From Agelas oroides (Eukaryota > Porifera > Demospongiae > Agelasida > Agelasidae), in NCBI GenBank assembly GCA_949130485.1, contig OX422194.1, positions 4,352,699 to 4,416,698 on the forward strand: a stretch of DNA of 64,000 nucleotides. Reading direction: 5' to 3'. The notes beneath the pieces are model-generated. The model searched no databases and was not told the DNA's origin. It was given only the letters and a program-made list of their open reading frames with translations. Each line of letters begins with the position of its first letter. The first letter of the stretch is position 1. Made by a program: the position numbers and the translations under genes. Shown piece after piece: positions 13,666 to 53,000 of the stretch.

Positions 13666-13808
13666 TGCATACACTTATATCTCCACAGGAAGGAAATGAG
13701 CACCTATACGTAACAGCAAAATGCACCTAACAGCGAGGTGCATTCAGTGTGTGCTACCTTTAGAAATATTATGCACTGACCGCACCAAACCAGCACTTAG
13801 TAGCAAAT

Positions 13809-16800
13809 ATGCACTTAACAACACGTGAGTATGGTATTTTGCTTGTGAACTGTTGCCATTCTGTTTGTACTTCCTCTGTTTCTGCACCAAAGGCTCCTTC
13901 TACCATGCAAAGCAAAGCTGAGTGTCTTTCATGTACTGATGGCTCTGGCAACACTCTCTTGCACATTGCTGCTAAACGAAACAATGTTGATGATGTAAGC
14001 CTCTTGTTAGAAAAAGGAGCTGACCGTAACCATAAAAATCATGCAGGAAAAACTCCTCTTCACCTTGCTTCAGCAAGTGGACGCATTGAGTAAGTAACTC
14101 TGTTGTGATTATAAACTATTTATTTTTGATTAGAACTGTTATTATAATTAGAAAATGACTCCACTACTATGGCTGCTAAACAAAACATCATGGATGCTCT
14201 GAAACTTTTAGTGAAGAAGGATGTTGATTGATAACGTTAGAAGAAGCAGCAAGATCATTAAGCATATTTTACTTTTCTCCTCTTCCCTTGTGTTCAGGAA
14301 TGTCCAAGCGTTACTGGGGAAGGACACCTGCAACGTTTCACCTGAAGACAATGATGGAATGACTCCCCTGCACAGTGCTTGTCAAAATGGACACACAAGA
14401 ATAGCAGAACTGTTACTTAATAGGGGAGCTGATATTGACCACAAGAATCCTCAGAGAAGCGCATGTACACCACTTAATGCTGCCATCAGAGAGAAGCGCG
14501 ATGAAATTGTTAAGCTGTTACACTCAAAGTAAGTCAACCATGCAATAACTGAGGTTTTTGATTTGGCTTGTGAGTTTGTAGTCTAATTTTAGAGGTACAA
14601 TTTTTATTTTTCCTTTTTCTACACCAGGGGTGCCAGCTTCCTTAGCTCCTTCATTAATGCAAAAACACAAGAAGAAGCAACAGCAATGATTAAAACCTTT
14701 GGTGGTGATGCAATAAAGAACGTTGTATCTGAAGCGGCTAAAGTTGGAGGACAGAAATCTCTGAAATTTCTAAAAGTGAGTTTCTGAACATAGATATTTA
14801 GGCATATAAGGAGGTAATTAAGGAGTTTTGAAATTCTTGGCAGATGTAAAATTCCGAGTCTTGACTATGGACTTCATTTGCCTCCATTTAGTCACACACA
14901 AAAGTCCATTAGCATATGTGAACATCCCGTGTAGAAATCGAAGATTATTCCATCGCGAATTTCGATCGCATCACTGCATTCAAAGCGCCGTATTCCTGAA
15001 CTTCCGTCAAGGCCGGGACACATACGCACTTCATATACTCATTAGATATTCATACATCTATGAAGCACGTATGAGCCCTGCCCTTAACGGAAGTTCAGCG
15101 ATACGGCGCAATACACAACGGAATAATCTTTGATTTCTACACAGGACTGTCATTTTCTACCTCACCCAAATTGTTATCAGTAGATGTAAAGAGAGACAAC
15201 CGATTGTCTTTTCAGACTCGAGTCGTGAGTCCAGCGTTTCAACTTTCTAAAGTTTTGTCTATTCTACCAGATATTAGCTGACTGTACAGGAACCAAGTAC
15301 CTCGTCGACCCTGTTGATTCTGACAACAACACTCCACTCCATCTTGCTGCCATGCATGGACACCATGAGGTCGTCAAGATTCTTACTGGAGCAAAACCTA
15401 AGGTGAATGCTTGCCACTTCTGTTTTGTACCATAATGGTCCAACTGTTATAATGTGAATGTCAGTAAACAAACTCCCATTCTTACCTCACTAGAGAGACG
15501 GAATCCTATCGCACTTGTGGGGAGACCAAGAGATCCAAGTTGATGCTAAGAACAGACATTCTGAAACTCCCCTACACCTGGCTGCTGGGAAAGGACATTT
15601 ACGGTAAGCACTAAATTGTTACTACACAATTCAGTTGAGCAAGCATTGTAGTTATACATTAATGTGAATCAATGCAAAATGGTTTAGTATCTTTGAGCTA
15701 GAATGCCATAGCACTTTACACCTATTGGAGTTTTGAGAAGCACAGAAGGATAAAGTAGTTTTGCATAAATAGAAGAAGCTAATGCAGTCCATACTCACTA
15801 GCTACACCACAGTCATGGTAGTGAGTGCCGTTCCAAGTGTTGTGTGGCATCAGAAATTGACTTCAAAGGCTGGCAGCTCAATAGAATGTTGCTGTCAACA
15901 CCACCATGGTCATGGATTAGAGGGCATTGTGCAGCTGTCAACATACATGGGCACTCTTTCATGGTTAATAGTAGAAACACGTTAATAGTAGAAACACTTG
16001 AAAGAGTGCCCACCCTCCTCTTTGGCAAACTTGTAAGGTGCTCCACCTTATTGACGAAACTAAAGGTTGCAAAGTTCAGCCAGGTTTCCAGTTCAGTCCA
16101 GCTCTGAGAGAGTGAGAATCAGTTGGAATTTGGCTGAGGCCTCTAGGCAATGCTGCTTATGTACCTTGTCTTCCGCTCCTCTGCCAGGGTCCAAGTGGCT
16201 TAATGAATGGTAAGAGCGTCTGACTAGTATTCAGAAGGTCTTGGGTTCGAATCCCAGATGTATCCCGGATTTTTTTCCGCGGATGTATTTCTCCCTCTCT
16301 CAGCAAAAACATCAGTATACATGAATGATGATGTAGCAGAAGTAAGCGACTTCGACCCCTGAGCATTACTGTAGTCTCAATTAATAATTGAAAGTACTTT
16401 GTATGGGTATTTATACAATGCTTTGAGCTCGCAAAGCAGCTATTTTCTTCAGTCAGTGGTGAGGAACAGTAGGCCAATTAGAATTTAGGGTTACTGGTAG
16501 TGGAAGTTTACTTCACTCTTCAAAGAGAGCTTTATCCTATATTGTGTGCTCTTTTTACTTACCACCACTTTATGAAACTTGCAATAGCAGCATAAAACCA
16601 TAGGTCAAAGCTTCCACAATCAGCTGATTCACTTTATAATTCATATTCTCTTTTCATCTCAGTGTTGTGCAGCATTTGGTTAGCCACAATCCTAAACTGA
16701 TGAAATGTCAAGATAGTGAAGGAAGAACACCACTGCACACTGCTTGTCAACATGGGCAAATGGAAGTTGTGAGGATTTATATCCAGAATTTGAAATCGGT

Positions 16801-19800
16801 TGCTAATACAAATTTACTCGAAGTCACTGATGCAAATGGGAACACCCCTCTACACCTTGCCCCTGAGGGAGAAAGCAAAGCTGTGGTGAAACTGTTGGTT
16901 GATCATCGCGCTAGTATTATTGCAACGAACAGTAAAGGAGAGACTCCTGTACACACTGCTGCTCAACACGAGTCAGTTGAGATTATGGAACTGCTTCTGG
17001 ACAAAGGTGGCAACACAGTGATTGAACTGAAGGATCACCGTGGATGTACACCACTTCACCATGCCGCAGAAAACAACCAGTCAGAGATGATCACATTTCT
17101 GCATCAGCGGTGAGCTTAGTATATATATACCTCTGATTTATGCAGTGTAGTCACATTAAATAAAAATCTTACACTTGCACAAGTGTGTTTCTTAACTCAG
17201 GTCGATTTAGGCAGTTCCGAAAATGTATTATTCAAAGTGTTGCCATAGTTTGCAAAAGTAAGCTTCTTAGCTTTGCTAGTGTTATTCTGGCTGTTAGTCC
17301 GAATTATTTAATTAGCACTTTAAATACTAAATTATATCCCCTAAAGGTCTTGTTCAGACTAGTCCCACCTTCTTTCACCTGTATTTCCACTTCTGCCAGG
17401 AGTTAGCCCAAGAAACTTGATCCACAGTTAAAATTAAACAACGGATAACTATTTTGCCGCCTCCTCCAAAAACGAAAGACTAAAGTTCTTGCCTTTCCAT
17501 TCTCCTTGCCTACGAGCCCATACCATTCTGCAGCAGTAGCCAAACTTGACTAGCGACGCGATATAATACATGATTATCATAATTGTCCGCTAGTAGAATC
17601 TTTTTTTTCCGAGGATAGGTGCTTGAACAGATGTAGTATTTCGCTTGCTAAATCCCGGGTAGAAGACTGTTTGGAGTTGAATTTCAAGTATGTTGATTAT
17701 CAAACGTTAGCCCACCTATCCTACAGTTCTGATATCTGCTGGACCTCTGCACACACAACAAGAGCACAATGTTTCTTAAGTGTCCAAGCATCAATTAGTG
17801 ACTATACATCAGTAAGCACTTGGCATCCTTTTGTATAGAGTAGACCTTTCTTGGGAGTTATTCATCCACTGGTCAGAGCAAAAGGTGTTTTCTTGTAGCT
17901 TAAAAGGTATGCAGTACTGGTAAAAACGCATGTGCTAAATACTTCTGCATAGGGGCATTTCCACAGTTGTTTATCATTCCACGTGCAACAGGGCCATACA
18001 TAATTTTTTTCCATGTGGGGGGGCATTGTCATTAGCTGAAGTAGAGAACATGGCCACCTTGGAGTCATTCACTCTAGGGGGTTGAAAATTTGGGTAATTT
18101 TAGGTGTTCTGAGGCGCATTCTGGTGCATTCTGAGGCATACACAGAGCTTCTTCAGAAGAGGCTCATCATCAAAATCATCATTGCTTGCTGAGCTATCTC
18201 CATCGGCTAGGGTCTATACTATAGGTCTATTATCTATGCCTATACCATAGCACTGGTATGCATGCACAAGATCAACACATGCACGCACAATGCATGCACG
18301 TATAGCTGACTGGTGATAGTATGCATTATTAGGATTTGAAAGCCACTGCATAGTCACCACTATAGGCTCTCAACAGTCCAGCTAGCTTAGACCCAATAAA
18401 CCACAGCACGGATCGCTTTCAGTATAGCACACGGGGCATACTCGAAGTGATCCGCGCTGGGGTTGGTGGGTCTGGCTTGCGAGACTAGCAAACAGTAACA
18501 CAGCCATCGGTAAGCACGGTCAGCAAGTGCAGGATTGATTAACTCAAATTCTCTGGGGGGGGGAGGGGGGGACTAGTTGCCCCCCCCCCCCCCCCCCTGC
18601 CCCTATGTAGGGTTCACGATCCAAAAAATTTTTGCTTCATATAATGTTCCAAAAGTAACTGCCAGCACTACCCACCAGGTACTGTTTTCAGATCGCACAG
18701 TAACTTTTTCCAAGTCTTCTTCACTTCGCAGTAAACGCACGTGCAATAGTTTGTGAAGATGCCCACTTATTGGGATACGTGTTTCCTGTGATGCACAGTA
18801 CAGAGATGGGTACTTAGTGCTAATTTCTGTGTACTAAGCGAGAAGGAGGACGAGAAAGGTGATAATCCCCGGTTACTCTACACACTACTTTCAAAAAGGT
18901 TTTGTCTTCACAAACTTCCACTCTCCATTGAGTGGATGATACACATATTAGACATGAACAGTGCCTGCATAAATAAATACAATATGTTGATTTAGGCATG
19001 AAAAGTAATTTGAACAGCACATTCAAGATCAGGAAAGAGTGCCTGCTGCAACAGAACTCCAGGAACCAATATTCTTGCTGTAGCCACCTACAAGGTATAA
19101 ATAAGATAGTAAGTCTTATAAACTACATAGTACTCTTACATTTTCTACTACATTCATGCAGTCTAACCAGATGCATGACCAGCCATATACAGTCAGCTAT
19201 TGAGGCGTAAGTTCTACTGAATCCCTCAGTCATGCACTTTACTGGAAACTTGTACAAGCTAGTCCCATCGAACAGGCTGGAATGTCTAGTGACTGGACAT
19301 CTCGTCCATCCATGTACTCAAAGCACTTGAACAATATCCAACCTTTGCTACTGGAAACATACTACAAACATCAAAAGTACATCATTTAGTACTAAAAGTA
19401 CCGTTGAGCGTCACAGAAGTGCATATCATACAAAACAACCCTTCACTGACTTCAGTGAAGGCCATACGCATTCAGGAATCAAAGGTATGAAAATTTAGGT
19501 GACTTTTGTAATAGTAGAGGCATCAAACTACCCTTGTTGTAAAGGTCCCCACGGACTGAAACTGCTGATACCACACGCAAGTGAATCTATGCAGAACTTG
19601 TGTACAAGCGGCGTCCCCGCCCCTTTTCCCATGCATTAAGTACAGAAAATATAGGGTATCTCGTTCAGGTGACTTTTCAAGTGACACACAAAATCAACCA
19701 CGCTCAAAAGTAAGCTTAGGCTTGCTACAGTTTATATCAAAGTAGCGCAGGATCAAACTCACTTGGGATCGGAATCCCGTAGGAACCACCACAGCTCCGG

Positions 19801-22800
19801 AAATTGACGCAGTAGGTCGGCAGTCACTTTTACTCTTGAAAAATCATCACAAATGTTCTCCAAGGTTGACTAAACAACAGCAACTTTCTGCGCTTTGGCT
19901 AGCTATAGCTTAGAGAAACATGTGAGCCTTGAAAAGTTTCGTGACCAAAATTTGACCGGGAACGAAAATTTTTCATTACGTCACTGCCAGCAAACGTACA
20001 GCTCCAGTCAATGCACTGTGCACTGACGATTAGGACTTGAGTACAATGTTTCACCGAGCGCATGAAATCGTTCATTGCAGTGCTTTCGTATTCCAAGTTG
20101 CGAACCCTACCCTATGCTAGGTATGGCACTGTGCAATGAGTATCATATGAGTGGGTGAAGACTCACTTAGCTACAATTTGTGTGGGTTGGGAATTGTCAG
20201 TGAGAGTGGAATGTCTGTATACAAGAGACACATGACATGAAACAGTAATAGATTCTATATATTTCTCCTACAGTGGAGCAAACGTTACCCAGGTTTGAAT
20301 GCTGGGTAGATCTCAATTTTCTTCCTGCACCTAAATTAGCGCTCGAAAGCTGATATGTATGTACTCTTAATGGCACTATAACCAATTTCCTTCTACAGTG
20401 GGGCAAACATTTATGCAGAAGACCAAACTTTGTGCATTCCAGTTCTGACTGCTGCAGCTCATAAGAAAGCTGAAGCCTTCCACTGCCTAATGAAATTAAT
20501 GGATCTCAAAGATGAGCAGAGGAATCCCATATTCAAAGTACTCCATGTGAAAAAGCATCAAGCAGAGACCTTGAAAGTAAGTCTCCATAGTCTCAAGATT
20601 AGCATGATTTGGTCATTGTTATATCTCAATTTTTCTTCCAACAGTTCCTCATTGCTGACAAAAAGTGGGGGTCCACATTGATCAAGTCCACTGACACCCT
20701 TAAGAATAGTGCACTACATGTCGCTGCAAGTGAGAATAACCTATCAGCTGTGACAGTCCTGGTAGAGAAAAAGGTTGAATGTCACGGTAAAAATGTGGCT
20801 GAAAAGACCCCAATGCACCTTGCAGCAGAAAAGGGCCATCAAGAGTGAGTAGCCCTAAAGTTGAGTACTAACTTTTATGCACAGTATAAACACAGCATAT
20901 AGGTGCTTGATTTAAGCCGTCATGAAATTTAAATGTGTTTTATCAATCTATTCTAGAATTGTACAGAAACTGCTTGACTCCAATCCATCATTGTTGAAGG
21001 AAGTAGACAATGAGGGGAAGAGTCCGCTCCATCTGGCTTGCCAACGTGGACACCACATGGTTGTTCAACGTATTCTTCAGTCACACCAGTATTCAAAGGA
21101 TGTATTGGAAGCCGGTGATAAAAAGGGGAACACCCCACTACATCTTGCCTGCATGGGAGGAAAGAAGAGTATTGTGGAAGAGCTCAATATGAAAGGGGCA
21201 AATCCCAAAACTACCAATGTGGACAGGAGAACTCCACTCCACCTTGCTGCCAAAAACAACCGAGTGGATGTAATTGAATACCTTTTCAAGTACGTTGAGC
21301 CTGAAAATAAGCAAGCATTTTCAACTTTTGACGTTTTCATTTGCATTCACACACTCAGGTTAGGTAAGTCTGGGTTCAGTAGAAAGCTGCTGTGTTCCAA
21401 GTTGATTAAATCTTGGACATTTAGCTGCCTTTATAGATACGTAATGATTATAGTATCATTCACTTTATCATCTATAAATCCTTTGCCAATGGAAACACTA
21501 AATGGTTGATATTGCCATGATAGTTTGCTGCTGATAGTCTAGTGAATCTGAAACAAACTGACTTTTCCTTAATACTTAGAAAGTTCTAAAACATCAACAT
21601 ACAGCATAAATACTGTGTATCTTTTTTGTTTTAGTATTGTGGAAGAACCTCAAATGACAAAGGAAATGCCAAGAGACATATGGTGTATGACTCCACTACA
21701 CATTGCCTGTCAGGAAGGGCACCATAAAGTTGTTATGGTACTTCAGCATCATTTGAGTGTAGAGGATATAAGAGCAAAAGACATGGAAGAAAATACTGCA
21801 CTGCATCTTGCTTGTGAGGGTGGTAAAAAGGATATCGTGCAGCTGCTTTTGGATAAGGGAATTGGTGTTGGAGAACTGATGAATGAAAGAAATGTGCGAG
21901 GTGAAGCTCCAATCCACTTTGCTGCCCGTGATGGGTATAAAGATATAGTTGAAGTACTTCTGAGCAAAGATGGTATACTTGACATATTACAAGACAATCG
22001 TGGGTTTACCCCACTTCACCACGCTGCTAGAAATAACCAGGAGAAAGTGATTGAATTTCTTTGTGAGCGGTAAGCTGACATGCTATTGTTATATTTTGAT
22101 TTGTCATTATTGAATGGCTTAATATCTTGACACAGCAACCCAGACCTGATCAACTGCGAGGATTCCAATTCCCACACGCCCATTCTTACAGCAGCAGCAA
22201 GATTAAAAGTGAAAGCTTTCCAGTGCCTGATGAAGTATCATGAGCATTGTAAAGAAAATCCAGTGTTCAAAGCCCTGGAGTCTAAAGAAAACCCAGTTGC
22301 CATTTTAAAGGTACAAGAATTCCCAGTCCCAAAAAGCTAGTCTCCACTTCAAAATTGATGATCTTCATTCTTTTTGTGTAGGTGATGATTGAAGATCCTA
22401 AGTGGGGTTCTAAACTTCGCCGTGATACTGATGATGATGCCAACACTCCACTGCATGTTGCAGCAAAACGTGGCAATCTTGCTGCAGTCAAAGTTTTACT
22501 GGAAGTAGACTTCTTTAGCTCTGAGATGAATCCTGTGAACAAAAGTGGTGAAACTCCCATGCATATGGCTGCAGAAGGAGGACATGTACAGTGAGTAACC
22601 TGACATACAGTTTTCCTGTTGTGATTTTAGGAGTCCGGCAATGTAGACATTGGACTGAATATATCTTCTCTTCTTTTGTAGTGTTGTAAGAGAGCTGATC
22701 AATTACCAGTCAAGGACAAAGGAGTTTAAAGATGAAGGCATGAACACTCCCCTCCACTTGGCCTGCAGGAATGGACACCTTGAAGTTGCCAGAATGCTCC

Positions 22801-25030
22801 TAGCTCCTCACCTACTATCAGAGAAGTATGTTATTATCTCTTCTTCTCCCCCCCCCCCCCCCCCCCAACATTCAAAAATTACACCCCAAGTGGAAAGGGG
22901 AAAAAATGTATAGTAAGCAGTGAATAAAAAGCCACAAAAATGCACTGTGTGCCCAATTTTTTGTGTTTCTTTACCAGCCTGAGAGTACTTACTGAAGTTT
23001 GACACCACAGCTTGAAACATTTTTGATTGAAGTATCTACTGTGAAAGCGCTAAGGTTGAGAGCTAATCCACTACTTGTCGATGCAAAACTGCCATGCCAG
23101 AGTGAATAAGGTGATGGAGTGAATCTATTCGCCATGACTGTGATCAAACAGAGAAGGCCGTCATAGGCCATGTTTCAAAAATTTCATTCACGCTAAAACA
23201 CTGAGGCAGCTCGATAATTCAGAAGGACATTCCAAATCAATAATGTAATGGTACAACTAAGTATCACTGACGTGCAAGATGTGCATTGTACTATAACGGA
23301 AGAAAACTTGCGCAAATTGCTAGAAAGTGGGTTTTCATGGGGAAAAGTTTAGCAAATTGGAGGAACCCGATTAAACACACCTAATGTTGGCGTGTGAATG
23401 TGACTAGTAACTTAGTATGGCCTGCATCACCTATGTGGAATCCGAGGCTACCATGTACGTCTGGAGGAATGTTATTGTTGGTAAATTTTGCCTGACCAGT
23501 GAGAGGGAGAAAACACTCAACAAGGCCCTAGTCTCTCACAAAGTGAAACTACACAATTCCTACATTATGGCAGAAATGGGAGGCAACACTTGCAACAAGT
23601 AAAACCACGGACAGTGGAAATCTGACTTTGGTAGTACAAAATCAGCATACCAAGGCTATGACAAGTGGAGAATAGAATTTATACTATTAAAGCAGAGTTC
23701 ACTGGTGATTCTGGCAGAATTGTGCGGAGAAACTTTTCCCACACAAATTGCACAGATGAAACACAAATGAATCTAAAGAAGTCAACGATGTGGAGCTGAA
23801 GTACATATGTGGCAGTCCCGTGTAGAAATCAAGGGTTATTCTGTCACGTATTTCGATCACATCGCTGTGTTTGAAGCGCCATATCGCAGAACTTCCGTTA
23901 AGGGCGGGGCTCATACGTGCTTCGTAGATGCATGAATATCTAATTCTACATGGGACTGCCACATATGCATAGTGTGATTCATACTTGATAATTTTACAAC
24001 AATATATTTCTATTAGTAATTCAAAATTTTGGCACCTTTATGCAAAACTTCTACATGACTCTTGCATGTACAACCAAAAATTGAGGGAACTCTTCACATA
24101 ACATGCAAATCCCCTCTATGATCTCTGCATGGCCCAACTCAGTTATGCTTTAATAACAAATATTTAGCAATAGTACTCAAACCAGCACTTAACAACACGT
24201 GAGTACAGCATTTTTTTGTTTGTTTGTTTTATGCATGGTCTTCTCCCTCCCTATAGAAGTAGATTTACAGGTTGTACAGTCATCAAGATTAGGTTTAGGC
24301 TTTATCATTGAACACTAAGGGTCCTATAGTCTTGATTGGTGATTCACTATATTGAAGAAGCACTCGAATTGTGCCCTTGGCCTATCTGGAAATAAGTATT
24401 TCAGTCAAGTTAATGATTTTAATGCCTTTGTTATGAAACTAATTTTCAAGAAATGCTTGTTGCCACTTTCTTCAGTGTATAAACCCACGTAAGTGATGAG
24501 AGTTATCTTTTCCTGTATAGAAATGACCAAGGAAACACCCCACTTCACCTGGCCTGCATGAGGAAGGGGAATATTGGAATAGTGAAAGAGCTAATTGCAG
24601 CAGTTGATTCTGATGTTAAAGGCCTCCTGAATGAAAGGTATGTTTTATAATGATAGGCAGATAGTTGCTCTGTGATTTTATGAACATGAATTTAATTCCA
24701 ACCTATTCTATGATGTCTGTGATTTTGATTCCAATTGGAATTTAAGGTGTGATCTACATCTTCCTTTCTTATCTATTTCTTACTTGTATCTACGTTTGAT
24801 ATTGATTTAAGTGATGCATAATGATCAATTTGTATCTGACTCTGATTTAGGAATGCCAAAAACCAGACCCCACTTGATCTGGCTTACCAGGAGGAAGACT
24901 CCGATATCAGTATTGTTCAGTACCTAATTGGAAAAGGAGCAAATGTTGGCTTGAAACCAGTATTTGAGGGATTATCTGAAGCTCGCCCTGACTTTAACTT
25001 CCTTGACTTGGCCATTGAAAGGAAACACAG
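13809..25030 (+). CDS. TRPA copy B, ankyrin-repeat exons (15 exons)
   Basis: The exons encode about 26 ankyrin repeats recognised by TPLH-type turns: NTLLHIAA, KTPLHLAS, MTPLHSAC, ETPLHLAA, RTPLHTAC, ETPVHTAA, CTPLHHAA, NSALHVAA, KTPMHLAA, SPLHLAC, EAPIHFAA, FTPLHHAA, NTPLHVAA, ETPMHMAA, QTPLDLAY and others. In TRPA channels this N-terminal array is cytoplasmic and couples stimuli to the pore. The exons form a repeated cassette: 20399 resembles 22136 (both end in CLMK followed by a charged segment), 15271 resembles 20645 and 22382, and 16663 resembles 20957 and 21635. The cassette keeps the phases 2-0-2-2, so exon blocks could be duplicated without breaking the frame. Confidence 0.88.
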
Positions 25031-28000
25031 GTTAGTTATCCTTTAAGAGTGTAGTATGTTGATGTACATAGCAGCTACACTCCTAAAAGTGTAGACTAAT
25101 ACTAAAGGCACATGTACCTTTGCCACTTGTACTAGGGACATTGCACTGAAGATTGTTGAGAGTGATTACTGGAAAGAGGCCCTGAGAAGCTGTCATGTTG
25201 TGGAAGGGTCTCCTTCTGCAGACAAAAAGCAAGCTCCTACTCCAGTCAGACCACAAGATCCTCCTACAGATATACCAGAAGGTCTTGCTGCAATCAAACC
25301 AGAAGGTCCTCCTGCAGTCATGCTGGAATGTTCTCCTCCTACAATCAAACCAGAAGGTCCTCCTCCTGCAGTCATACCGAAATGTTCCCCTCCCGCAGTC
25401 AATCCAGAGTGTTCTCTTTCTGTAGTCAATACAGAGGGTCATTTTACTGAAACCACTCCCATGAGGGAGCTAATTAAAGAAATGCCAGGTATAGTGTTTC
25501 CAGTGGATCATCTCTATGACTTTGACCTCCTATCTACATGGGCTCTATTGCTTAGGTAGTAATACTTATGATGCACTGGGTTTGTCTGCTAGAGTTGCTT
25601 GCTATTGTTGAAATCACTTTTCCTCGTTAGTTTAATAATGCTTGCCTGTGTATAAAATGTCGTGGTGTTTGTGGTAATTAGCTTGCAAGTGCATTTAACC
25701 CTTTAACTACTAATGACCACTATAGTCATCATTCAACGTTGGCTGCATGTTATCATTTGGTGCAATCCGTTTGTCTGCACTAGCAGAAAGAATGGGACAG
25801 GAGAAGGTGGGTGGGTGACAGCACATGGTGGCTGTTGCAGCTACCGTATTTTTTCAAATAAAACACATGCAATTTAAATAATTTGAGTGGGCATGCGTTA
25901 AGTTAGATCCACCCATAAATTCCAGGAATTGAATTTCTTGCGTTAGATTAGATCATGCGTTGCAAGGGATTCAAACACAAAAATTTTTTGGATCAAACAG
26001 AAATGCAAAGTGTTCCTGGCCTTCAGTTCTCCAGAAGTGAGGTTCTTGATAGACAGCAGCAGCTTCAGCAACAAAAAGTCATATAAACACCAAAGTAGAA
26101 CAGTTATGGGATAGCTCTTTCTCCTGGAAATTGTTCTTGACCGCCCTTTGTTGCCACAAAATAAACTGACTGGGACAACTGAGAGGCTTCATTCCTGGTA
26201 TTGCACTAAATTGGATCAAACCAAAATTAATTAGTGGTGGCTTGCGCTAAGTTTGATCCACCCATAAATTGAATTTCTTGCGCTAGATTGGATCATGCAT
26301 TTTATTTGAATAAATACGATAGCTGTAGAAAAGCCTTGGTTGGCACTAGGTGGGCCATTTTTCTCCTTTCCTGCACAAACGGGCATAGAAAATACTCCTT
26401 TCACCTTGTAGGGGCTTCATTTCTGGCACTGTAGGCAGCTTTCAGTCCAGAGCATTGTTCTCTGATTGGAGAGCCCTGAAAACCGAATGCTCACCAATGA
26501 GTGTGATCAAGGTCATGAGTTTGAAAGATGCTGTGGCTCAAGTTTCCAGTGCTAACTCCCAGCAGAAGTCAAAACACAGATTAAAGAATGTGTCAATTAT
26601 TAGTCTAATAAAAGACAATTCAGTAGTTAATGGGGTATATATATATGTTGAAATTTTTGCAGTGGATAAATTTTGTGTATTTTGTGAGTTAGTCTGGATC
26701 CATGAACAAGTTGTGCATATGTGCCATGCTATGTGCATACTTTTCCACACTTTTGCGCAACATTATTCTCGTAAATGTTTTTCATGTATATACCTATATC
26801 TCAATTGTAGTCAAATCAAAAATGCATTTAAACAAACTTTTTGTTTGCAGATGTTGCTGAGAAAGTCTTGGACAGGTGCACAGAGAGAAAGAAGTATGTT
26901 TACGAATTTCTGGAAGACTTTAAACCACTGTCGTTGTCCTGTTGCCAAGGACGTAAGCATGATGACATTGAAAGCAGACTGCAAAATGAGAATGACCACT
27001 GGGGTCCAAAGCATTTTGAGCGCTTTAACCATCCATTATCCATCATGGTAAGTTGCGATGATAACACATCGTGTATGTTAAGTTTTATCACATCACATGC
27101 ACATCTTGAGAAATGTTACTTTTTAAGTGCTGCTTATGTAATGTTGTAGCACTAATGGTTTTTAATAAGGTAACTATTTGTAATGATACCATGAAGAAGA
27201 ATACATAATGCTTTCGTTCATGCACTCCATCATTCAATCTATACATTGTATATAGTCATTGTACATTCATTCTTTTACAGGTAAAGTACCGGTGCTCTGA
27301 GCTGCTGAAGCATGAGCTAGTTTCCTCATTCTTGAGACAAAAATCGAGATTTGGAGCAGCATTTTACCTTGCTGACTTATTTCTCTATGTCCTCTTCTTG
27401 GTATTTTTGACAGTATATGCTCTCATGGTCCCAACACCCTTGGATGATATCTGTGAGTAAACAGTTTTTTATTCTTTTTGACAAGTACTATGAATATGAC
27501 ATTGATTTTTATTCACAGGTGCAACAAACACTTCTGACCATCCTTCAAATATCACACCGTCCTTGTGTCCAGGTTATTAGTTATTAGCTCCTAGGGCAAT
27601 TGTCAGTATAGGCACTGTTTACTGCTTTATACTATGTGTTTTTTGCAGATTGGAGACAGTATTCTTCAACTTACATTCTTGCCATGCTCACAATCATATT
27701 TGCTACTATTGGACTCTTGTTGCAGTTCTGGAAGTTTTGTACGTTAATGATACGATACTGCAGTCATTTGACAGACTGCAAGTGGCACAACAACTGGAAA
27801 GAATTCCTGTCTCGATCATTTTACGGAACAATCAGATTTCACATGTTTGCGTTTGCTATCGCCTTTGCTGCTGTCTTCCATTTCCCATGCCCTTGTGTTA
27901 CGAATGGCCAATGGCAAGTTGGAGTGCTTGCTGTGTTTCTTGGCTGGATTAACACAATCACCTTTATCAAACTGGTGCCACAGCTTGGAGTCTATGTCCT

Positions 28001-29957
28001 GATGTTCCAGAATGTCATCTATTCCTTTTTCAAAATGTTACTGTTGGGACTTCTCCTGATTGTAGCATTTGGACTGGCTTTCTACATGCTGTTCAGAACC
28101 CCTTCACAAATGGTATGCTTATGAATTGCTTGTCAATGAAAATTGTTCGTAATAAGTACAGTCTGATGCTTGCTTGGTTTATGTTTTCTTGTAGCGCACT
28201 GCTTTCGCTACCCAACGTAGATCTGATGCTTGCTTTATGTTTCTTTCCAGCGAAGTCCCTTTGCTACTCCTGGACTTGCTTTTGTCAAAACTATGACAGC
28301 AGACTTGGACTTTGATGAGATGTTTCGCCTGAGTGACGATGAAGATGAAATTGCATATGTGGGAGCCTCCTACTTGATGTGGATTGCATTTGTGATCATC
28401 CTGGCCATCCTTTTTCAGAACCTACTTGTAAGTCTCTCGATAGCTATAATGGAAATTTACTACATAGGCCACTGTTGAACTTAACAGTTGTAAAGGGGTA
28501 TGTATGCATTACAGGGTAACTTGGAAATGTTCCTGTTTCCGGTGGACCAACTATACTATTGTTTGGAACTCACAATAACTTTGCCCATGATAGATAATCA
28601 AGCAGTTTTACGTACACTCTACTGGGGTATGTATAACGAAATATTTTTATGCTATTGGCACTTGTGGACCTGACCTCTTTCTAGTGATTTTGCAAATAGT
28701 CCAAGACTATGGCTAGTATAGTATAAGGCTAGTGTGCTACTCACTTAAGGACAGTCATCCAGCATGCAAGGAGCATATGTTAGTTATATATTTACCATTT
28801 ATCTACTAATGACATCACCTTTTACAGACTAGTGTGGCTGTTGGTGACATTCAAGAAGTTCGACAAAATGCTCTACTCAGGCAGCGGGAACTTCATGTGA
28901 GTTTGGTTTGCAATCCTCTTGGCTGGCCCATACCAAGCTATAGTTATTATGATTTAACATATCACTGATGCACTAAAGTGAGAATTGACAGTAATCAAAC
29001 AGGCTAGAAACAAGACAAAACAAGAAATGGAAGGGATTTCATTTCCAACACCTTATCAACACCTACTGCAATTGGTGTCAATAGCCTGTTTGTGGCAATT
29101 ATTGACACCAAAACAATCTGGTGACAATCTGGTGTCAATAGATAGGCACAGTGTAAGTGAAAATAGTTGCTATACACTTGGGCATAGCCAAGTTAAGTTA
29201 ATTACTAATATCTGCAGGTGGAACTGCTGCTGAACCTTGAGGAGTTATTGCCACAAACACTTGGTGATATTGATGAACAACAGAAATCTCACAGGACATA
29301 CAGAATCTTTGAATGGTTATGGGAACTTGCTAGTGGTGCAAGTAAAGTGGTAAGTGAACATGCAGGCTATATTCACTGAAGGAAGGCATTCAATTCTGAA
29401 ATGTGACTATATTTTGACTAGAGTTATATGCATAAGTAGTACAAAGTGATTGAACTTCATGAAAGTCGGTGTATAATGGTTAATGACTAAATGAGGAAAA
29501 AACCTAGCTATTACACTACCGAAAACACTCTTACCAGTAATGAAACCACTACATCCAGCCAGAAAAAAATCATATAGATAAACAAGGATTGAGAATGTCC
29601 CATGGTGGCTGTATTTGTGACATGAGTCTGATGATGTTTGTTTGCTGACACATCTCCCAACAAATTATCTTACAATATTTTCCCTCCACATGCCATTAGG
29701 AGCAAGTGCATCCACTGGAACACAAACTTGATCAGGCACTTAGTGAAATTGACAGTATCAAGCAAATACTGAGGGATCACTCCAGAAAACTAGAGGAGAC
29801 AGACAGCACTGTCAAGCAGGTAGAAGGACACCACGAGGTGCATGAGAATCTTGCTCAGCGGACCTCTGAGAAACTTGACATTATGAAAGAACAGTTCCTT
29901 GAGAGGATTGAGAAACTTAGTCGCAAATTTCAACAGTCTTCTGCTGCTGCTTATTAA
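13809..29957 (+). CDS. TRPA-like ankyrin-repeat cation channel, copy B (near complete)
   Basis: 24 coding exons, all GT-AG with matching phases: 13809-14089, 14298-14528, 14628-14775, 15271-15402, 15494-15603, 16663-17109, 20399-20576, 20645-20844, 20957-21289, 21635-22069, 22136-22310, 22382-22590, 22682-22825, 24521-24637, 24851-25030, 25136-25488, 26851-27047, 27281-27452, 27519-27572, 27649-28112, 28251-28427, 28828-28896, 29218-29349, 29700-29957. The sum is 5,196 nt, a multiple of three. The 5' end is uncertain: ATG 13809 gives 1,731 residues and in-frame ATG 13905 gives 1,699; an acceptor-like CAAAG before 13895 leaves room for an upstream exon. Layout: about 26 ankyrin repeats, Pro-rich linker, S1-S6, TRPA-type TRP helix (VAVGDIQEVRQNALLRQREL), coiled coil. 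It is longer than human TRPA1 (about 1,119 residues) mainly through more ankyrin repeats. It would act as a plasma-membrane, non-selective cation channel. It is convergent with the receptor phosphatase. Confidence 0.88.
14142..14229 (+). pseudogene. ankyrin exon remnant in an intron
   Basis: After an AATTAG acceptor-like site the sequence reads, in the phase set by the previous exon, an ankyrin-like stretch (MAAKQNIMDALKLLVKKDVD) and then TGA. No good donor follows. The flanking exons (14089 and 14298) join in phase without it. It is probably a decayed ankyrin exon; if ever included it would terminate the protein. Confidence 0.55.
14922..15151. mobile_element. MITE in TRPA intron, CCCGTGTAGAAATC family
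   Basis: Inverted ends: catcccgtgtagaaatcg on the left and gatttctacacaggactg on the right, with inner arms matching around 'aacttccgt'. It is 230 bp with no coding capacity. The same family is present at 23804-23967 in another intron of this gene. Confidence 0.8.
15604..16662 (+). other. TRPA copy B intron with inverted repeat and tRNA-like sequence
   Basis: Non-coding interval between exons ending 15603 and starting 16663. It holds an inverted repeat at 15949-16012 (gggcactctttca against tgaaagagtgccc) whose loop carries a 17-base direct duplication, and the tRNA-like sequence at 16189-16265. Confidence 0.7.
16189..16265 (+). other. tRNA-derived sequence (tRNA-Thr-like, AGT), probable SINE head or pseudo-tRNA
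   Basis: D arm GCTT/GAGC, anticodon stem TCTGA/TCAGA with loop CTAGTAT (anticodon AGT, U33 present), a 5-base variable loop, and T arm TTGGG-TTCGAAT-CCCAG all fold. The seven bases expected for the acceptor stem do not pair (GTCCAAG against ATGTATC). A run of T's at 16270-16276 could end Pol III transcription. So this is not a working tRNA. It is most likely the head of a tRNA-derived SINE inserted in the channel intron. Confidence 0.6.
17110..20398 (+). other. large TRPA copy B intron
   Basis: 3.3 kb without a supported exon; flanking exons join in phase. It contains a G-run facing a C-run at 18556-18602 and, at 20266-20300, a short degenerate copy of the following acceptor and exon start (ctacagtggagcaaac against ctacagtggggcaaac). 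Confidence 0.65.
18556..18602. repeat. G-run / C-run self-complementary tract
   Basis: About 17 purines, almost all G, are followed by eight bases and then about 20 C. On either strand this could form a G:C hairpin or a quadruplex. Confidence 0.75.
22826..24520 (+). other. TRPA copy B intron with poly-C tract and MITE
   Basis: Contains a poly-C tract (22848-22866) and the MITE at 23804-23967. Near 24178-24215 it carries 'accagcacttaacaacacgtg', which also lies directly upstream of the gene at 13810-13830. Flanking exons (22825 and 24521) join in phase. Confidence 0.65.
23804..23967. mobile_element. MITE, GGCAGTCCCGTGTAGAAATC family
   Basis: The ends catatgtggcagtccc and gggactgccacatatg are perfect inverted repeats. 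The internal sequence matches the element at 14922-15151 (aacttccgt, catacg.gcttc.tag). It is shorter than that copy, so it is an internally altered family member. Confidence 0.8.
25136..25488 (+). CDS. TRPA copy B, Pro-rich linker exon
   Basis: Begins with the end of the ankyrin region (DIALKIVESDYWKEALRSC) and then runs into a low-complexity stretch of repeated KPEGPPAV-type units encoded by imperfect tandem repeats of 33-36 nt (about 25240-25430). It ends with TTPMRELIKEMPG at donor 25488 (phase 1). The linker joins the ankyrin array to the pre-S1 region. Such spacers vary fast, and repeat number may be polymorphic. The reverse strand is also open by composition and is not a gene. Confidence 0.8.
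25489..26850 (+). other. TRPA copy B intron
   Basis: Between the linker exon and the pre-S1 exon. It holds the MITE at 25841-26323. The open frame starting 26455 is intronic except for its overlap with exon 26851-27047. Confidence 0.6.
25841..26323. mobile_element. MITE with CCGTATTTTTTCAAATAAAA ends
   Basis: The left end ctaccgtattttttcaaata and the reverse complement of the right end (near cgtatttattcaaataaaat) match, followed by inverted segments with 'ttaga.c.atgc' and 'cccataaatt.aattt'. About 480 bp, non-coding. Confidence 0.7.
26851..28427 (+). CDS. TRPA copy B, pre-S1 to S6 exons (channel domain)
   Basis: Exon 26851-27047 encodes the pre-S1 linker (WGPKHFERFNHPLSIM). 27281-27452 encodes S1 (LADLFLYVLFLVFLTVYALM). 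27519-27572 encodes an extracellular loop with N-glycosylation sites (NTS, NIT). 27649-28112 encodes S2 to S5 (YILAMLTIIFATIGLLLQF; FAFAIAFAAVFHF; VGVLAVFLGWINTITFIKLV; FKMLLLGLLLIVAFGLAFYM). 28251-28427 encodes the pore end and S6. The W-N-P-GVYV pattern between S3 and S4 is typical of TRPA. The S5-S6 loop is rich in acidic residues (LSDDEDE). Confidence 0.88.
28828..29957 (+). CDS. TRPA copy B, TRP helix and coiled-coil tail exons
   Basis: Exons 28828-28896 (TSVAVGDIQEVRQNALLRQR), 29218-29349 (LLNLEELLPQ) and 29700-29957 (HKLDQALSEIDSIKQILRDH, then a charged heptad-like tail) end at TAA 29955-29957. In TRPA1 the C-terminal coiled coil lies on the tetramer axis. Divergence from copy A is low, mostly single substitutions and no indels in coding sequence, while the introns differ more. 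That suggests purifying selection on both copies. Confidence 0.87.
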
Positions 29958-47000: not shown

Positions 47001-50000
47001 ATTCTGTCATGAGATATCTGGCGGCCAAGTCTCAAATGGTGAACTAAGACCAGAACAGTTGGCACTGCCAGGTATCTCGAGACAGCCAGCCTGGCGAACC
47101 AGTACGCCAAGGTCAACATACCAGACAGTATGTCTGATGCACTAATGAATGCACAATTATTGTCCTCTCAGACACTCGCACATCTCCAGGGAGACAACCA
47201 GGGCGACTCTCAGAGATCATCTGTGAGACGAGCTTTGAGTTCCTTCCTATGCAGATCACAGGATTTTTTAACAGATGGACAACAGATAAACCCTTCATGA
47301 AAAACAGACCTCTGCTTTTTATGGACTAACACTTTTGGGTGGTGTAAGAATACTGCATCACTGGTTTCTAAACAGTTTTAACACTATGTTATTTTGAGTA
47401 GAGCCCTACCATCCTCTCCAGTGGTGGCGATGACCTGGGTGGATGGTCCCACAAACTGCCCAGTGAAGAAGAAGGACAGCTCAATAGTGTAGTTGGTGTA
47501 AGGGAGAAGGAGGTGCACTTGGACTGGGCTGTCCCGACTGATACGTTGTGTGCGCTTTCCAGAAGGATGCACCACCACCACACGCGTCTGGTTGTATGAT
47601 GTGTACAGTAGGACCTAAGGGAAAGAAGGGCCATGTGCATGGAGAGGGAAGGGTGTGTGCACTGACGTTACAAACACATGGTCCAGCAAGTATTGCAAAA
47701 TACATATTGGCACCACAAAGTTTTGACTGTACTCTATTGATAGCCCCAAAGCACAATCACTACCATACTTATTTTGCAAGAATCTATCAAATGTTAGATC
47801 CCAAAAATTAGTGTTCGTTCTCATACCAATATCGCCTCTATTGTGATCTAACGACAGCAGGTATTTGCACAATCTTAGGATTGACCAGCACATTCTCAGA
47901 TCTCTACTAACAGAGACTATGTGCTCTATTTCAACATACATGACCATCAGCACTTCATGCAATAGACTACCTATCATAACACCATTCAAGAAATCAGAAC
48001 TTTGAAGGGTGTAAAGGGGAATTCTTAATTGTACCAAGCACACCTACACTCTTAACTTAATTGCACTAAGTAATGCACGCCTACACCACATTAATTGGTT
48101 TAGCTAAACTAGAATCTAGCTACTACTTATTTGAATATCGTGCTCCTTTATCGGCTCAATATGCTGTAAGTCTGCTATGAAGCTTTCATATTTGTACTAG
48201 TATGAATCAACATCACACTGCGCCCACTACTACAGACAGACAGAATAGAGGCCATTGCAACTTTGAGAGCCTGATTAGTCAGTCACATCCTCAGTCAATA
48301 ATTACATGTAGATTGTACATAGGCGTGGAACCACGTGCATCCCAGAACTATCATTTCATTAGTTAGTGCCATGTGACTTAGATTAAAGTGTGGTGAGGTG
48401 ATAGTTATTTTGGTAGAGCTCCTAATGCCACCACTCACATCGGGAACAGTCCAGTATACGGTGAGGTTTCTGGGGCCAGAGCTTACGGTAATATTCTCAG
48501 GATACCGTAGTAGCGGGGGCTTTGGTACTGTATGGGTGTGTCAGGGAGGGAGATGGATAGGAGGAAGAGGAGAAGAGAGGGGAGGGGAGGGGAGGGGAGG
48601 GGAGGGGAGGGGAGAGGAGAGGAGAGGAGAGGAGAGGAGAGGAGAGGAGAGGAGAGGAGAGGAGAGGAGAGGAGAGGAGAGGAGAGGAGAGGAGAGGAGA
48701 GGAGAGGAGAGGAGAGGAGAGGAGAGGAGAGGAGAGGAGAGGAGAGGAGAGGAGAGGAGAGGAGAGGAGAGGAGAGGAGAGGAGAGGAGAGATAAATCTG
48801 CTTCACACTAAGCAAAGGTTTGTGACCATTAGGTAAAATTTAAGGTGATAAACAACCACTTTCACGCAAACAAACTTTACGGCCAACCGACTGTTGGTTA
48901 CAGTAAGAAATGGTTGTTCTACAAGTACATGTGATGACAAAACAGTACATTACAGTATGGTGAGCATGAAACCAGAATTCATGGCTTCATGCTTCATGCA
49001 CAAGTGCAGCATGAGGACCAATACGTGAATACCCTACAATAACAATAATGCATGAATATGTTGGCCACACATCAGCACAGTTCAAGACATCCCATGGTAG
49101 GTCCTTATAACCACTAGCGCCTATCCCACTGCTAGAGAGCCTCTTGGCAAACGGTAATGGAAAAACCATGCTATCTGCAAACAACAAAGCTAATGCAATA
49201 ATCCAGGAACTTTGCTAGTTGCAGCACAACATGCACACATTGGGTACTGATTCACAGCCCATCCTATTATAATGCGGCAAGCAGCTTGTAACATAAAACA
49301 TACCACACGACATTCTCTAAGGGAACATGACATACCTCCTGGCTCAGTCGACACATTGATTAGACTGCTAGGCTCCCCGAATCCAAAGGGTGATTTGGCT
49401 ACTACCCACACCTGGTAGTGTGCACTGGGATAGAGTCCAGTGATGTTGTAGCGATTTCTCATGGTCAACACACTCTTCTGCCCTTGGCAGTCAAAGCTCA
49501 GACAGTGCCATACAACATAGCCACTAAGAGGTAGGCCAGTTACAAGGCTCTCTAACCACTGTATTTCAAACCATGATGAGCCTGTTTGGTTGACCTTTAA
49601 AGAATGAGGTGGCTCCGGGGGTCCTGGGGGGTGTGGTGTTGGAGGGAGAAGGAGAGGGAGAGGGAGAGGGAGAGGGAGAGGGAGAGATTTGTAATTCACA
49701 TTTGCGTCAAAAAGTTAGGATTTGCATCATATTTGGACAGGGTACAATCCAGTAAGTCAAACTAATCCACAGGCTAGGGCCATGGTGGGAGCTCACTCAA
49801 GCAGTTACCATACACTTTATGAGGTTATTCTCATACAACAACCACAAGGCAATTGCTCCCCACCTCCTATACAGATAATCTACACTCACCATAGACCATC
49901 AGCATGGTTTGTGAGGGGATTGTTCCAGCCTCATTCCGTGCCACACACGTGTAATTTCCTCTGTCGTCCTTTCGTGCTTTGGTAATAGTCAGTGTTCCAT

Positions 50001-53000
50001 TTTCCAAGTCCACTCGTGAGTCTCTCACTATCACAGTTCCATTATGAAGCCAGGTGTAGGTAGGAAGGGGATATCCACGTGCTAAGCAAGTGAGTTCAAT
50101 CTTCTCTCCAATGTCTACTATGGCGTTAGGTGGTGGGTACTCAAGGAAGGATGGGGGCACTGTGTGGGTGTGTGTGTGTGTGTGTGTGTGTATACATGAA
50201 AGGAGATGAAACCCAACCCAGCTCACTAGCATTTCAGAATCGCACTACTGTGTACATGCAGCCAAACTCACTATTTGCCTCCATATCAGCACAAAAATCC
50301 TTAGTGTCAATCAACATGTGGTGTGTAGCACCTTCAAACCTACTCACTGCCGAGCACCTTAGCACAAGGTGTCTCACCTTAGCACAAGGTGTCTCCTCTC
50401 GGTTGGTGTGGAATGGCTACTACAGTGTCTGCTGCGGAGTGGCTTACATGAATGCATGCTAATATCCGTCACACAAAATCTATCGTGCTTACTAAAACAG
50501 GAATGCAAACATCTGCCATGCTTAGAAATACAATTCCTCCTCGGTGCTGCAGTAGTGGAGCTAGCAGTCTCACTGTGGCCAGCAAAGTGCAGTCAGTGCA
50601 TGTCAGTGCATGTCAGTGCCAACAAAGTGAAGGCAGAGAGCTAGACAGAGTGGAGTGACAAAAAAGAAGCCCAAGGAAGTGGAGCCAGAAGAGTTCAGTC
50701 AACGCTTTCCAACACTAAGTGAGCGAAGACAAAGAGGCAAGCAGAGTGAAGCGAAAAGACAGCAACAGTGAAGTTATTACGCCATGCCATTTTGGGACTA
50801 GGCACTGCAGTACCTCGCTAATGTCTGCAAACTCCTCAAAAGTACGCTTTACCACTCTTCGTTCATACCTCGAGCTCTGGTCTTCAACGACAACTATGTA
50901 TGTGCCTTGCATGCGTGAGGCTTATTCTGTGCATGCATACACCTAGTATAAATGTTTATACACACCCTCCAGTGCAGGTGCTGACCCTTGGTGAGATGAC
51001 AAAGGGTTTAAGAAAGATCTAAATGTGGGCTAAAAGTTAACTGCTGGCACAGAAGCTTGTTGACTCAACAAGGCCAGGGAGGAAGCATGCAAGTATATGG
51101 GGCACCTGACCTATGACACATGCTATACTTACGTAGTACTGTAAGATGTGCGTCATACTTACGTAGTACTGTAAGATGTGCGTCGTACTTACGTAGTACT
51201 GTAAGATGTGCGTCATACTTACGTAGTACTGTAAGATGTGCGTCGTACTTACGTAGTACTGTAAGATGTGCGTCGTACTTACGTAGTACTGTAAGATGTG
51301 CGTCATACTTACGTAGTACTGTAAGATGTGCGTCGTACTTACGTAGTACTGTAAGATGTGTGTCATACTTACGTAGTACTGTAAGATGTGCGTCATACTT
51401 ACGTAGTACTGTAAGATGTGCGTCATACTTACGTAGTACTGTAAGATGTGCGTCGTACTTACGTAGTACTGTAAGATGTGCGTCGTACTTGCGTAGTACT
51501 GTAAGAGGTGTGTCATACTTACGTAGTACTGTAAGATGTGTGTCATACTTACGTAGTACTGTAAGAGGTGTGTCATACTTATGTAGTACTGTAAGATGTG
51601 CATCATACTTGCATAGTACTGTAAGATGTGCGTCATACTTACGTAGTACTGTAAGAGGTGTGTCATACTTATGTAGTACTGTAAGATGTGCATCATACTT
51701 GCATAGTACTGTAAGATGTGCGTCATACTTACGTAGTACTGTAAGATGTGCGTCGTACTTACGTAGTACTGTAAGAGGTGTGTCATACTTACGTAGTACT
51801 GTAAGATGTGCATCATACTTGCGTAGTACAGTAAGATGTGTGTCATACTTACGTAGTACTGTAAGATGTGCGTCATACTTACGTAGTACTGTAAGATGTG
51901 CATCATACTTGCGTAGTACTGTAAGATGTGTGTCATACTTACGTAGTACTGTAAGAGGTACTCCATCTGAAAGATAGAAGCCTACTCTGTTGGTGGCATT
52001 ACAGACATAGATGCCATTGTCAGCTAGTGAAACACTGGGGATGACCAGGTTCCCTGAGGGGAGGATCTGCCACCTGCTCCCACTCGTTATGTCCATTCCA
52101 TTGTGGGTCCAGGTGATGGTGGGAGGGGGGTGGCCACGGGCACTACAGTTCAGCATCGCCATGGTGCCATTCTTAACACGTGTTGGTTTAGGGCTTATTG
52201 CAAATGTGGGGCGAACTGTGTGTGTGTGTGTGTGTGTGCATGTGCGTGTGTGCATGCATGTGTGTGTGCGCGTGTGCATGCATGTGTGTGTGTGTGTGTG
52301 TGTGTGCGTGTGTGCATGCATGTGTGTGTGTGTGTGTGTGTGTGCGTGCATGCGTGTGTGTGTGTGTGTGTGTGTGCATGCATGTGTTTCAGTGGCCATG
52401 GTGAATATAAAACTGGTACCTGGTTCAGAGCCCCACTAAGTGCACATACCAATTCAACATACCTCCACCACACCTGATAACAATCCCCACTTGGTACTAT
52501 GTAAATACAGAGCTGAAATTTCTGACCCAATTTGGTGATAAAGGGTAGACTAAATGTTTTGAGTACAACTTCAAGATAAGAGGGACTCTGATAAGGTACA
52601 ATAACAGTAAAACAGTCAGGTCACAGACATCCATAGCCTATAAAATATCCTGTAATGGATGGTCTGTATGCTGTTGTTCAAGCCTTGACAGTCAGGTCAC
52701 AGACATCCATAGCCTATAAAATATCCTGTAATGGATGGTCTGTATGCTGTTGTTCAAGCCTTGAACAGCCCAAAATGTTCTGTTTTCCTAGTTAATAGAC
52801 AGATGCTGTATCATATTCACACACACACACACACACACCCCTAGGGCACATTTTGTTTTTCATTCCTATCCCTGCGTGACAGTTTCGTCCTTGACTATGA
52901 TCAATCAAATCCCAACTGGCCTACTAACTGCAATGAATGTTGGCAGGCCATCTTGGGGGGGAGTAGCACCAGCAAGATCGAATTACACTAACTAAGGTGG

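Follow-up and report, generated by a model that had tools for sequence, protein, structure and literature searches.

A mirage-type minisatellite at a splice donor of a predicted receptor phosphatase gene in the sponge Agelas oroides

In a receptor tyrosine phosphatase gene of Agelas oroides, the donor junction of the third Ig exon has become a minisatellite: 28 units of 30 bp, each holding the end of the exon and the start of the following intron, continue into the intron without closing the reading frame. The array is a real and striking structure, best filed as a mirage-type, IFI6-like minisatellite. We consider it rather probable that this junction-spanning repeat is neutral and that splicing proceeds mainly from unit 1, with the remainder removed as intron. 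An earlier sequence-only reading had proposed either neutral satellite growth seeded at a junction or a generator of hinges of variable length. The first fits the evidence better and the second fits it worse.

The array in its host gene

The window, that is the whole stretch of 64,000 nucleotides that was analysed, carries the host gene on the minus strand at approximately 30480–55560, an extent placed by eye. Its content comprises four Ig and several fn3 domains, a hydrophobic stretch and phosphatase exons; the transmembrane reading of the hydrophobic stretch and the further fn3 and phosphatase exons were also assigned by eye. Pfam searches with ten open reading frames (ORFs) of the gene matched Ig in four, fn3 in two and Y_phosphatase in three, with no match in one, which agrees with the receptor phosphatase named in the sequence-only reading. 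From their order and strand, we infer that these ORFs form one gene. A protein search with the host gene scored 7,983 candidates and found 343 proteins, the best 10 of which include receptor phosphatases named delta, F and Lar. Sequence identity to them is low, at about 25% across half of the query or 46–50% across 12%, and the top local identity among the 120 relatives listed reaches 65%, across 7% of the query, in Geodia barretti. On both its domains and its relatives, the predicted gene is a LAR-like receptor tyrosine phosphatase. Protein searches for an orthologue to compare brought up distant relatives alone, and the search for a recent array-free paralogue found other Ig exons at most 43% identical among the matches listed (126 matches; 150 of 566 candidates scored). 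Next to the phosphatase gene, the plus strand at 13764–29957 carries ORFs that look like an ankyrin-repeat ion channel (TRPA-like by eye), and an in-frame tandem repeat of about 24–27 bp, encoding a PPAVIPKCS-type peptide, lies within an ORF at 25211–25428.

The Ig3 exon (51943–52215, minus strand, 273 nt) begins with TTCGCC after the acceptor cacacacacag and ends in ...DGVPLTVL plus one extra base, C. The Ig4 exon (49890–50159, minus strand, 270 nt) begins with TGCCCC after the acceptor acacccacacag and ends in TATG before the donor GTGAGT. Both exons match Pfam Ig, and their borders are predicted from splice signals together with the Ig domain. With splicing from the unit 1 donor, the intron between them would measure 1,783 nt (50160–51942, minus strand); it is in phase 1 at both sides. 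The preceding Ig2–Ig3 intron holds a perfect 76-bp direct duplication (window 52612–52764) about 0.4 kb upstream of the Ig3 exon in coding order.

TRF places the minisatellite at 51125–51956 on the minus strand (period 30 bp, 27.7 copies, 92% match), and reading it unit by unit in coding order gives 28 units from 51955 down to 51116, so both approaches uphold the earlier view that the Ig3 exon ends in the first of 28 30-bp units. Each unit consists of CTTACAGTACTAC, 13 nt of exon end, followed by GTAAGTATGACGCACAT, 17 nt of intron start. As in a mirage, the unit spans an exon–intron boundary, here placed by splice signals and the Ig domain, and the copies keep splice signals: the donor dinucleotide is GT in 21 units, GC in five (units 2, 5, 9, 12 and 16) and AT in two (units 10 and 13), the same counts as previously given. 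As is also said of IFI6, the repeat resembles the donor consensus and begins at the exon end. Unit 1 (51926–51955, minus strand) contains the presumed exon end, with the last exon base at 51943 and the donor GTAAGT starting at 51942. GTAAGT is present in every one of units 17–28, and unit 28 (51116–51145, minus strand), although degraded past GTAAGTAT, carries the final GT donor of the array. In the genome searched, 259.3 Mb in 141 contigs, an exact 18-mer from the unit occurs 21 times, always inside the array, and a 571-base query of exon plus array, run in a DNA search that skips very common words, matched its own locus alone.

Open frame, unit types and accessibility of the donors

All 28 hypothetical joins to the Ig4 exon leave the frame open and each unit adds ten residues, which bears out the claim that the array multiplies a 5' splice site in frame. 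When the exon is read on unspliced through the whole array, the first in-frame stop is reached at 51065–51067 (minus strand). The sequence-only reading had also stressed that no unit contains a stop. That observation stands, given that all joins are open, but as an argument it is almost worthless: stop-free units are expected because few mutations of the consensus unit could create a stop; 3 of its 90 single-base changes, and none of the 30 transitions, produce one in the exon frame. The open frame as a sign of coding use was rejected on these numbers. A period divisible by three would have a prior chance of about one in three. An antisense reading of the array was also set aside, with one antisense frame open in the consensus and nothing else in support.

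Among the 27 whole units, 8 of the 30 columns are variable, the donor columns −1, +1 and +2 among them. All three would fall among eight random columns with P = 0.014, a value that refers to three columns picked afterwards. Two CpG pairs make up four of the eight variable columns. Given that the three donor columns all vary, the donors show no more conservation than the other parts of the unit, and they decay at least as fast. In coding order, the 27 whole units fall into nine types (ABCADEFCGHCGHAEIFCCAFCFFCFC), with the block C-G-H present twice and units 17–27 built from types A, C and F only, a pattern that ordinary repeat turnover would be expected to give.

Where one consensus unit meets the next, a 14-bp hairpin covering the donor can form, in which AGUACU..GUAAG.AUG faces CAU.CUUAC..AGUACU. 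Its computed energy is −9.8 kcal/mol as RNA and −6.3 kcal/mol as DNA, values equally low in 2 and 1 of 200 simple shuffles, respectively. The GC and AT variants give weaker RNA hairpins (−5.4 and −4.9, equally low in 21 and 11 of 200 shuffles). Over the whole 861-nt stretch, the fold is better than 20 of 20 dinucleotide shuffles (z −2.2).

A local folding model was used to predict the openness of the 9-nt donor footprint. For unit 1 the value is 0.0033, the 45th percentile of 85 other donors in the genome (median 0.0042), and it rises to 0.012 when units 2–28 are left out in silico. The other 20 GT units range from 0.00002 to 0.0011, and the seven GC or AT units, with their stem-weakening changes, from 0.0028 to 0.013. 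Hence, unit 1 is predicted to be more open than each of the other 20 GT donors, with a margin of 3-fold to about 150-fold, which, together with the lack of conservation at columns −1, +1 and +2, speaks against the earlier description of some 20 equivalent donors. The predicted advantage of unit 1 comes from the local ensemble model, and two results count against it: the minimum-energy fold of the whole stretch pairs the unit 1 donor with unit 2, and the hairpin between units 1 and 2 (−9.4) is close to the consensus (−9.8).

A matrix built from 85 donor sites ranks the GT unit at the 15th percentile, compared with the 7th for the Ig2 donor, the 32nd for Ig1, the 53rd for FN1 and the 87th for Ig4, ranks that are biased by the selection of the 85 sites through a consensus rule. 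Computed U1 pairing of the GT unit is −7.6 kcal/mol, equal to the FN1 donor; the values for Ig1, Ig2 and Ig4 are −5.5, −5.6 and −11.1.

Repeated junctions elsewhere in the genome and in other animals

For comparison we collected 98 other Ig/fn3 exons (loci L010–L038 without L016, L043–L072 and L073–L112), a set that excludes the window's own L009 and L016 and that includes paralogues, so that its members are not independent. A rule-conforming donor was present in 85 of the 98 and an acceptor in 95. None of the 85 donor junctions has a tandem copy, which leaves the present array as the single donor-side instance among the Ig/fn3 exons examined. One of the 95 acceptor junctions does: at an Ig exon in L019 (positions 1726–1910 of G000:C18:3306774-3310019), three 61-bp copies, 99% alike, each repeat a pyrimidine tract, CAG and about 40 nt of the exon start. 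A period of 61 bp breaks the frame, so in at least one instance a junction repeat arose in this genome regardless of frame. Two long non-junction minisatellites, L021:1965-2396 (27 bp × 16) and L010:1-1057 (49 bp × 22), lie no more than about 0.5 kb from other Ig exon matches.

Three GTAAGT motifs separated by short gaps gave 936 matches (415 + 521) in the whole genome, compared with 5,997 (2,050 + 3,947) for the reversed control. In the 76 Mb listed, 28 clusters were counted by eye, or about 96 when scaled to the genome; the 28 include one GTAA microsatellite and irregular chance-like groups, and the window's array is not among them. Fifteen of the 28 were inspected by eye from reading frames over the upstream 600 nt (L113–L119) or about 350 nt (L120–L127), distances that some arrays may outreach, and no convincing coding exon was seen there; Pfam searches with four ORFs (L116, L121, L113/L114 and L122) gave no match. 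With GTAAGT groups rarer than the reversed control and the 15 inspected lacking a convincing exon, the idea that such arrays generally mark exon ends was rejected. Donor-bearing arrays are not rare, and, unlike the 15, the window's array starts at a recognisable exon. One array, at G000:C2:2075269-2076052, has units of about 41 bp with repeated GTAAGT, some 19 by length. It shows no coding exon in the 350 nt before the first listed donor, and the repeat seems to begin further up.

The human IFI6 minisatellite (6-16/G1P3) reportedly comprises 26 copies of a 12-bp unit; it is said to start at the exon end, and the protein to grow in frame by a fixed peptide. The present array resembles it as a minisatellite offering multiple splice donors and differs in its size (30 bp × 28), in the hairpin over its internal donors and in being known from genomic sequence alone. 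The IFI6 minisatellite is reported to provide multiple splice donors (Turri et al. 1995), and three mRNA species reportedly arise through the use of two downstream repeat units. In amphioxus, mirages are minisatellite-like repeats across exon–intron borders, described in Adh3 (10–72-bp units) and globins; they are unstable in length, the Adh3 mirage even somatically, and their authors' data suggest no interference with regular splicing (PMC3087553). Mirages are also reported in TnC and, similarly, in PGBD5, and those of Adh and TnC are stated to yield no aberrant mRNAs (PMC3902484). With Adh3, TnC and the globins BflGb6 and BflGb9, the amphioxus examples seen in these sources include donor-side and acceptor-side cases in ordinary protein-coding hosts (PMC3087553, PMC3902484). 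The copy number of 28 in the present array compares with six and three in two BflGb6 haplotypes given there (PMC3087553, PMC3902484). Further differences are that the array occurs in another animal, that its 30-bp unit is fully in frame and that it is read from the genomic sequence of one locus. The statement in the sequence-only reading that no such case had been described is contradicted by these human and amphioxus precedents.

Related phenomena operate on other scales. In human segmental-duplication genes with variable internal tandem repeats, 27 of 80 modifications lie at introns as boundary repeats that alter splicing, and 9 of 10 such cases in coding sequence are in frame (PMC2812944). 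The variable repeats of that study average four 30-bp units and are described as forming novel introns, whereas a single donor is multiplied here (PMC2812944). Tandem donors of the GYNGYN type offer a choice between neighbouring sites (PMC1779574), and in-frame tandem sites of 3, 6 or 9 nt are described (PMC2279118); GYNGYN-type donors differ by a few nucleotides, compared with the 30-bp units of the array. In the open-licence literature searched, IFI6 was the one comparable in-frame donor array, a result that does not imply absence from print.

How the array may have grown and may be spliced

The founding event may have been a tandem duplication across the donor junction of Ig3, taking in 13 nt from the exon and 17 nt from the intron, after which the array would have expanded to about 28 units, perhaps aided by the 14-bp hairpin, which can be drawn in DNA (AGTACT..GTAAG.ATG / CAT.CTTAC..AGTACT) and in RNA. 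Internal GT donors in the pre-mRNA would mostly be paired with CUUAC of the adjacent unit, so the spliceosome would mostly take the unit 1 donor, and the array beyond unit 1 would be removed as intron. With a 30-bp unit, splicing from a later donor would add no more than decapeptides between Ig3 and Ig4, and occasional products of this kind may be tolerated, perhaps as rare isoforms; a selected function would be unnecessary. Most of the additional splice signals in this gene probably go unused, and low-level isoforms longer by 10n residues are possible.

In test genes with competing identical donors, the copy closest to the 3' splice site can win, a rule that would give late units the advantage and weighs against predominant use of unit 1. 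The same holds for the 21 of 28 donors that are intact GTAAGT with every join in frame, for the low matrix rank of the GT unit and for the two downstream donors reported to be used at IFI6. That none of the 85 other donor junctions is repeated also counts against the neutral reading. The neutral reading draws on the frame-breaking junction array in L019 and on mirages reported to leave splicing undisturbed (PMC3087553, PMC3902484).

The main rival, which has a modest but appreciable chance, is multi-donor use as in IFI6, in which few or many units would be used appreciably to give a ladder of +10-residue products with no selected function. It is favoured by the 21 in-frame GTAAGT donors, by computed U1 pairing, in which the unit surpasses the Ig1 and Ig2 donors and equals FN1, and by the two downstream repeat units reportedly employed at IFI6, whereas the folding model gives the internal GT donors a lower openness than unit 1 and, because unit 2 is GC, the nearest GT alternative lies 60 nt on. 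Amphioxus mirages are also reported to splice regularly (PMC3087553, PMC3902484). A protein search that included the array residues (7,995 candidates of limited length scored) found four proteins matching about one-fifth of the query, none encoding the array, which counts lightly against multi-donor use. A bolder form, in which several of the 21 GT donors set linker length stochastically or heritably in ten-residue steps, tuned by array length and by donor openness set through the hairpin, strikes us as unlikely.

Use of a distal unit, up to unit 28, as the main donor would turn the array into exon and give a protein with a long decapeptide repeat. The frame is open through all units and units 17–28 all carry GTAAGT, but their predicted openness (0.00002–0.0011) is below that of unit 1, and the reading would require an exon of about 1.1 kb and place an extended repeat between two compact Ig domains, which makes this outcome very improbable. 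At least as improbable is a selected hinge generator, in which the array would be kept to vary the Ig3–Ig4 linker between molecules, cells or individuals. The frame is kept, every unit supplies LTVL, the end of the Ig exon, anew ahead of the junction, and minisatellites are unstable in length, reportedly even somatically in the Adh3 mirage (PMC3087553). However, the donor columns are not conserved, 7 of 28 units lack GT, and the frame argument is near chance, with a length divisible by three and a unit barely able to gain a stop.

Long tandem arrays are prone to mis-assembly, and the DNA search of the assembly turned up neither another copy nor another haplotype with which to compare the locus, but the ordered pattern of nine types in 27 whole units is unlike a pure assembly loop, and a copy number inflated from a smaller junction duplication is the least likely explanation of all.

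The mirage-type reading, with splicing mainly from unit 1, adds one more animal, besides lancelet and human, in which a splice junction has turned into a minisatellite. Together with the acceptor-side array in L019, it suggests that junction repeats recur in this genome irrespective of frame. The natural series of near-identical donors would offer a direct test of which copy the spliceosome chooses and of the role of RNA hairpins in that choice. If the array did act as a length setter, one gene would give a ladder of Ig3–Ig4 linkers growing by ten residues.
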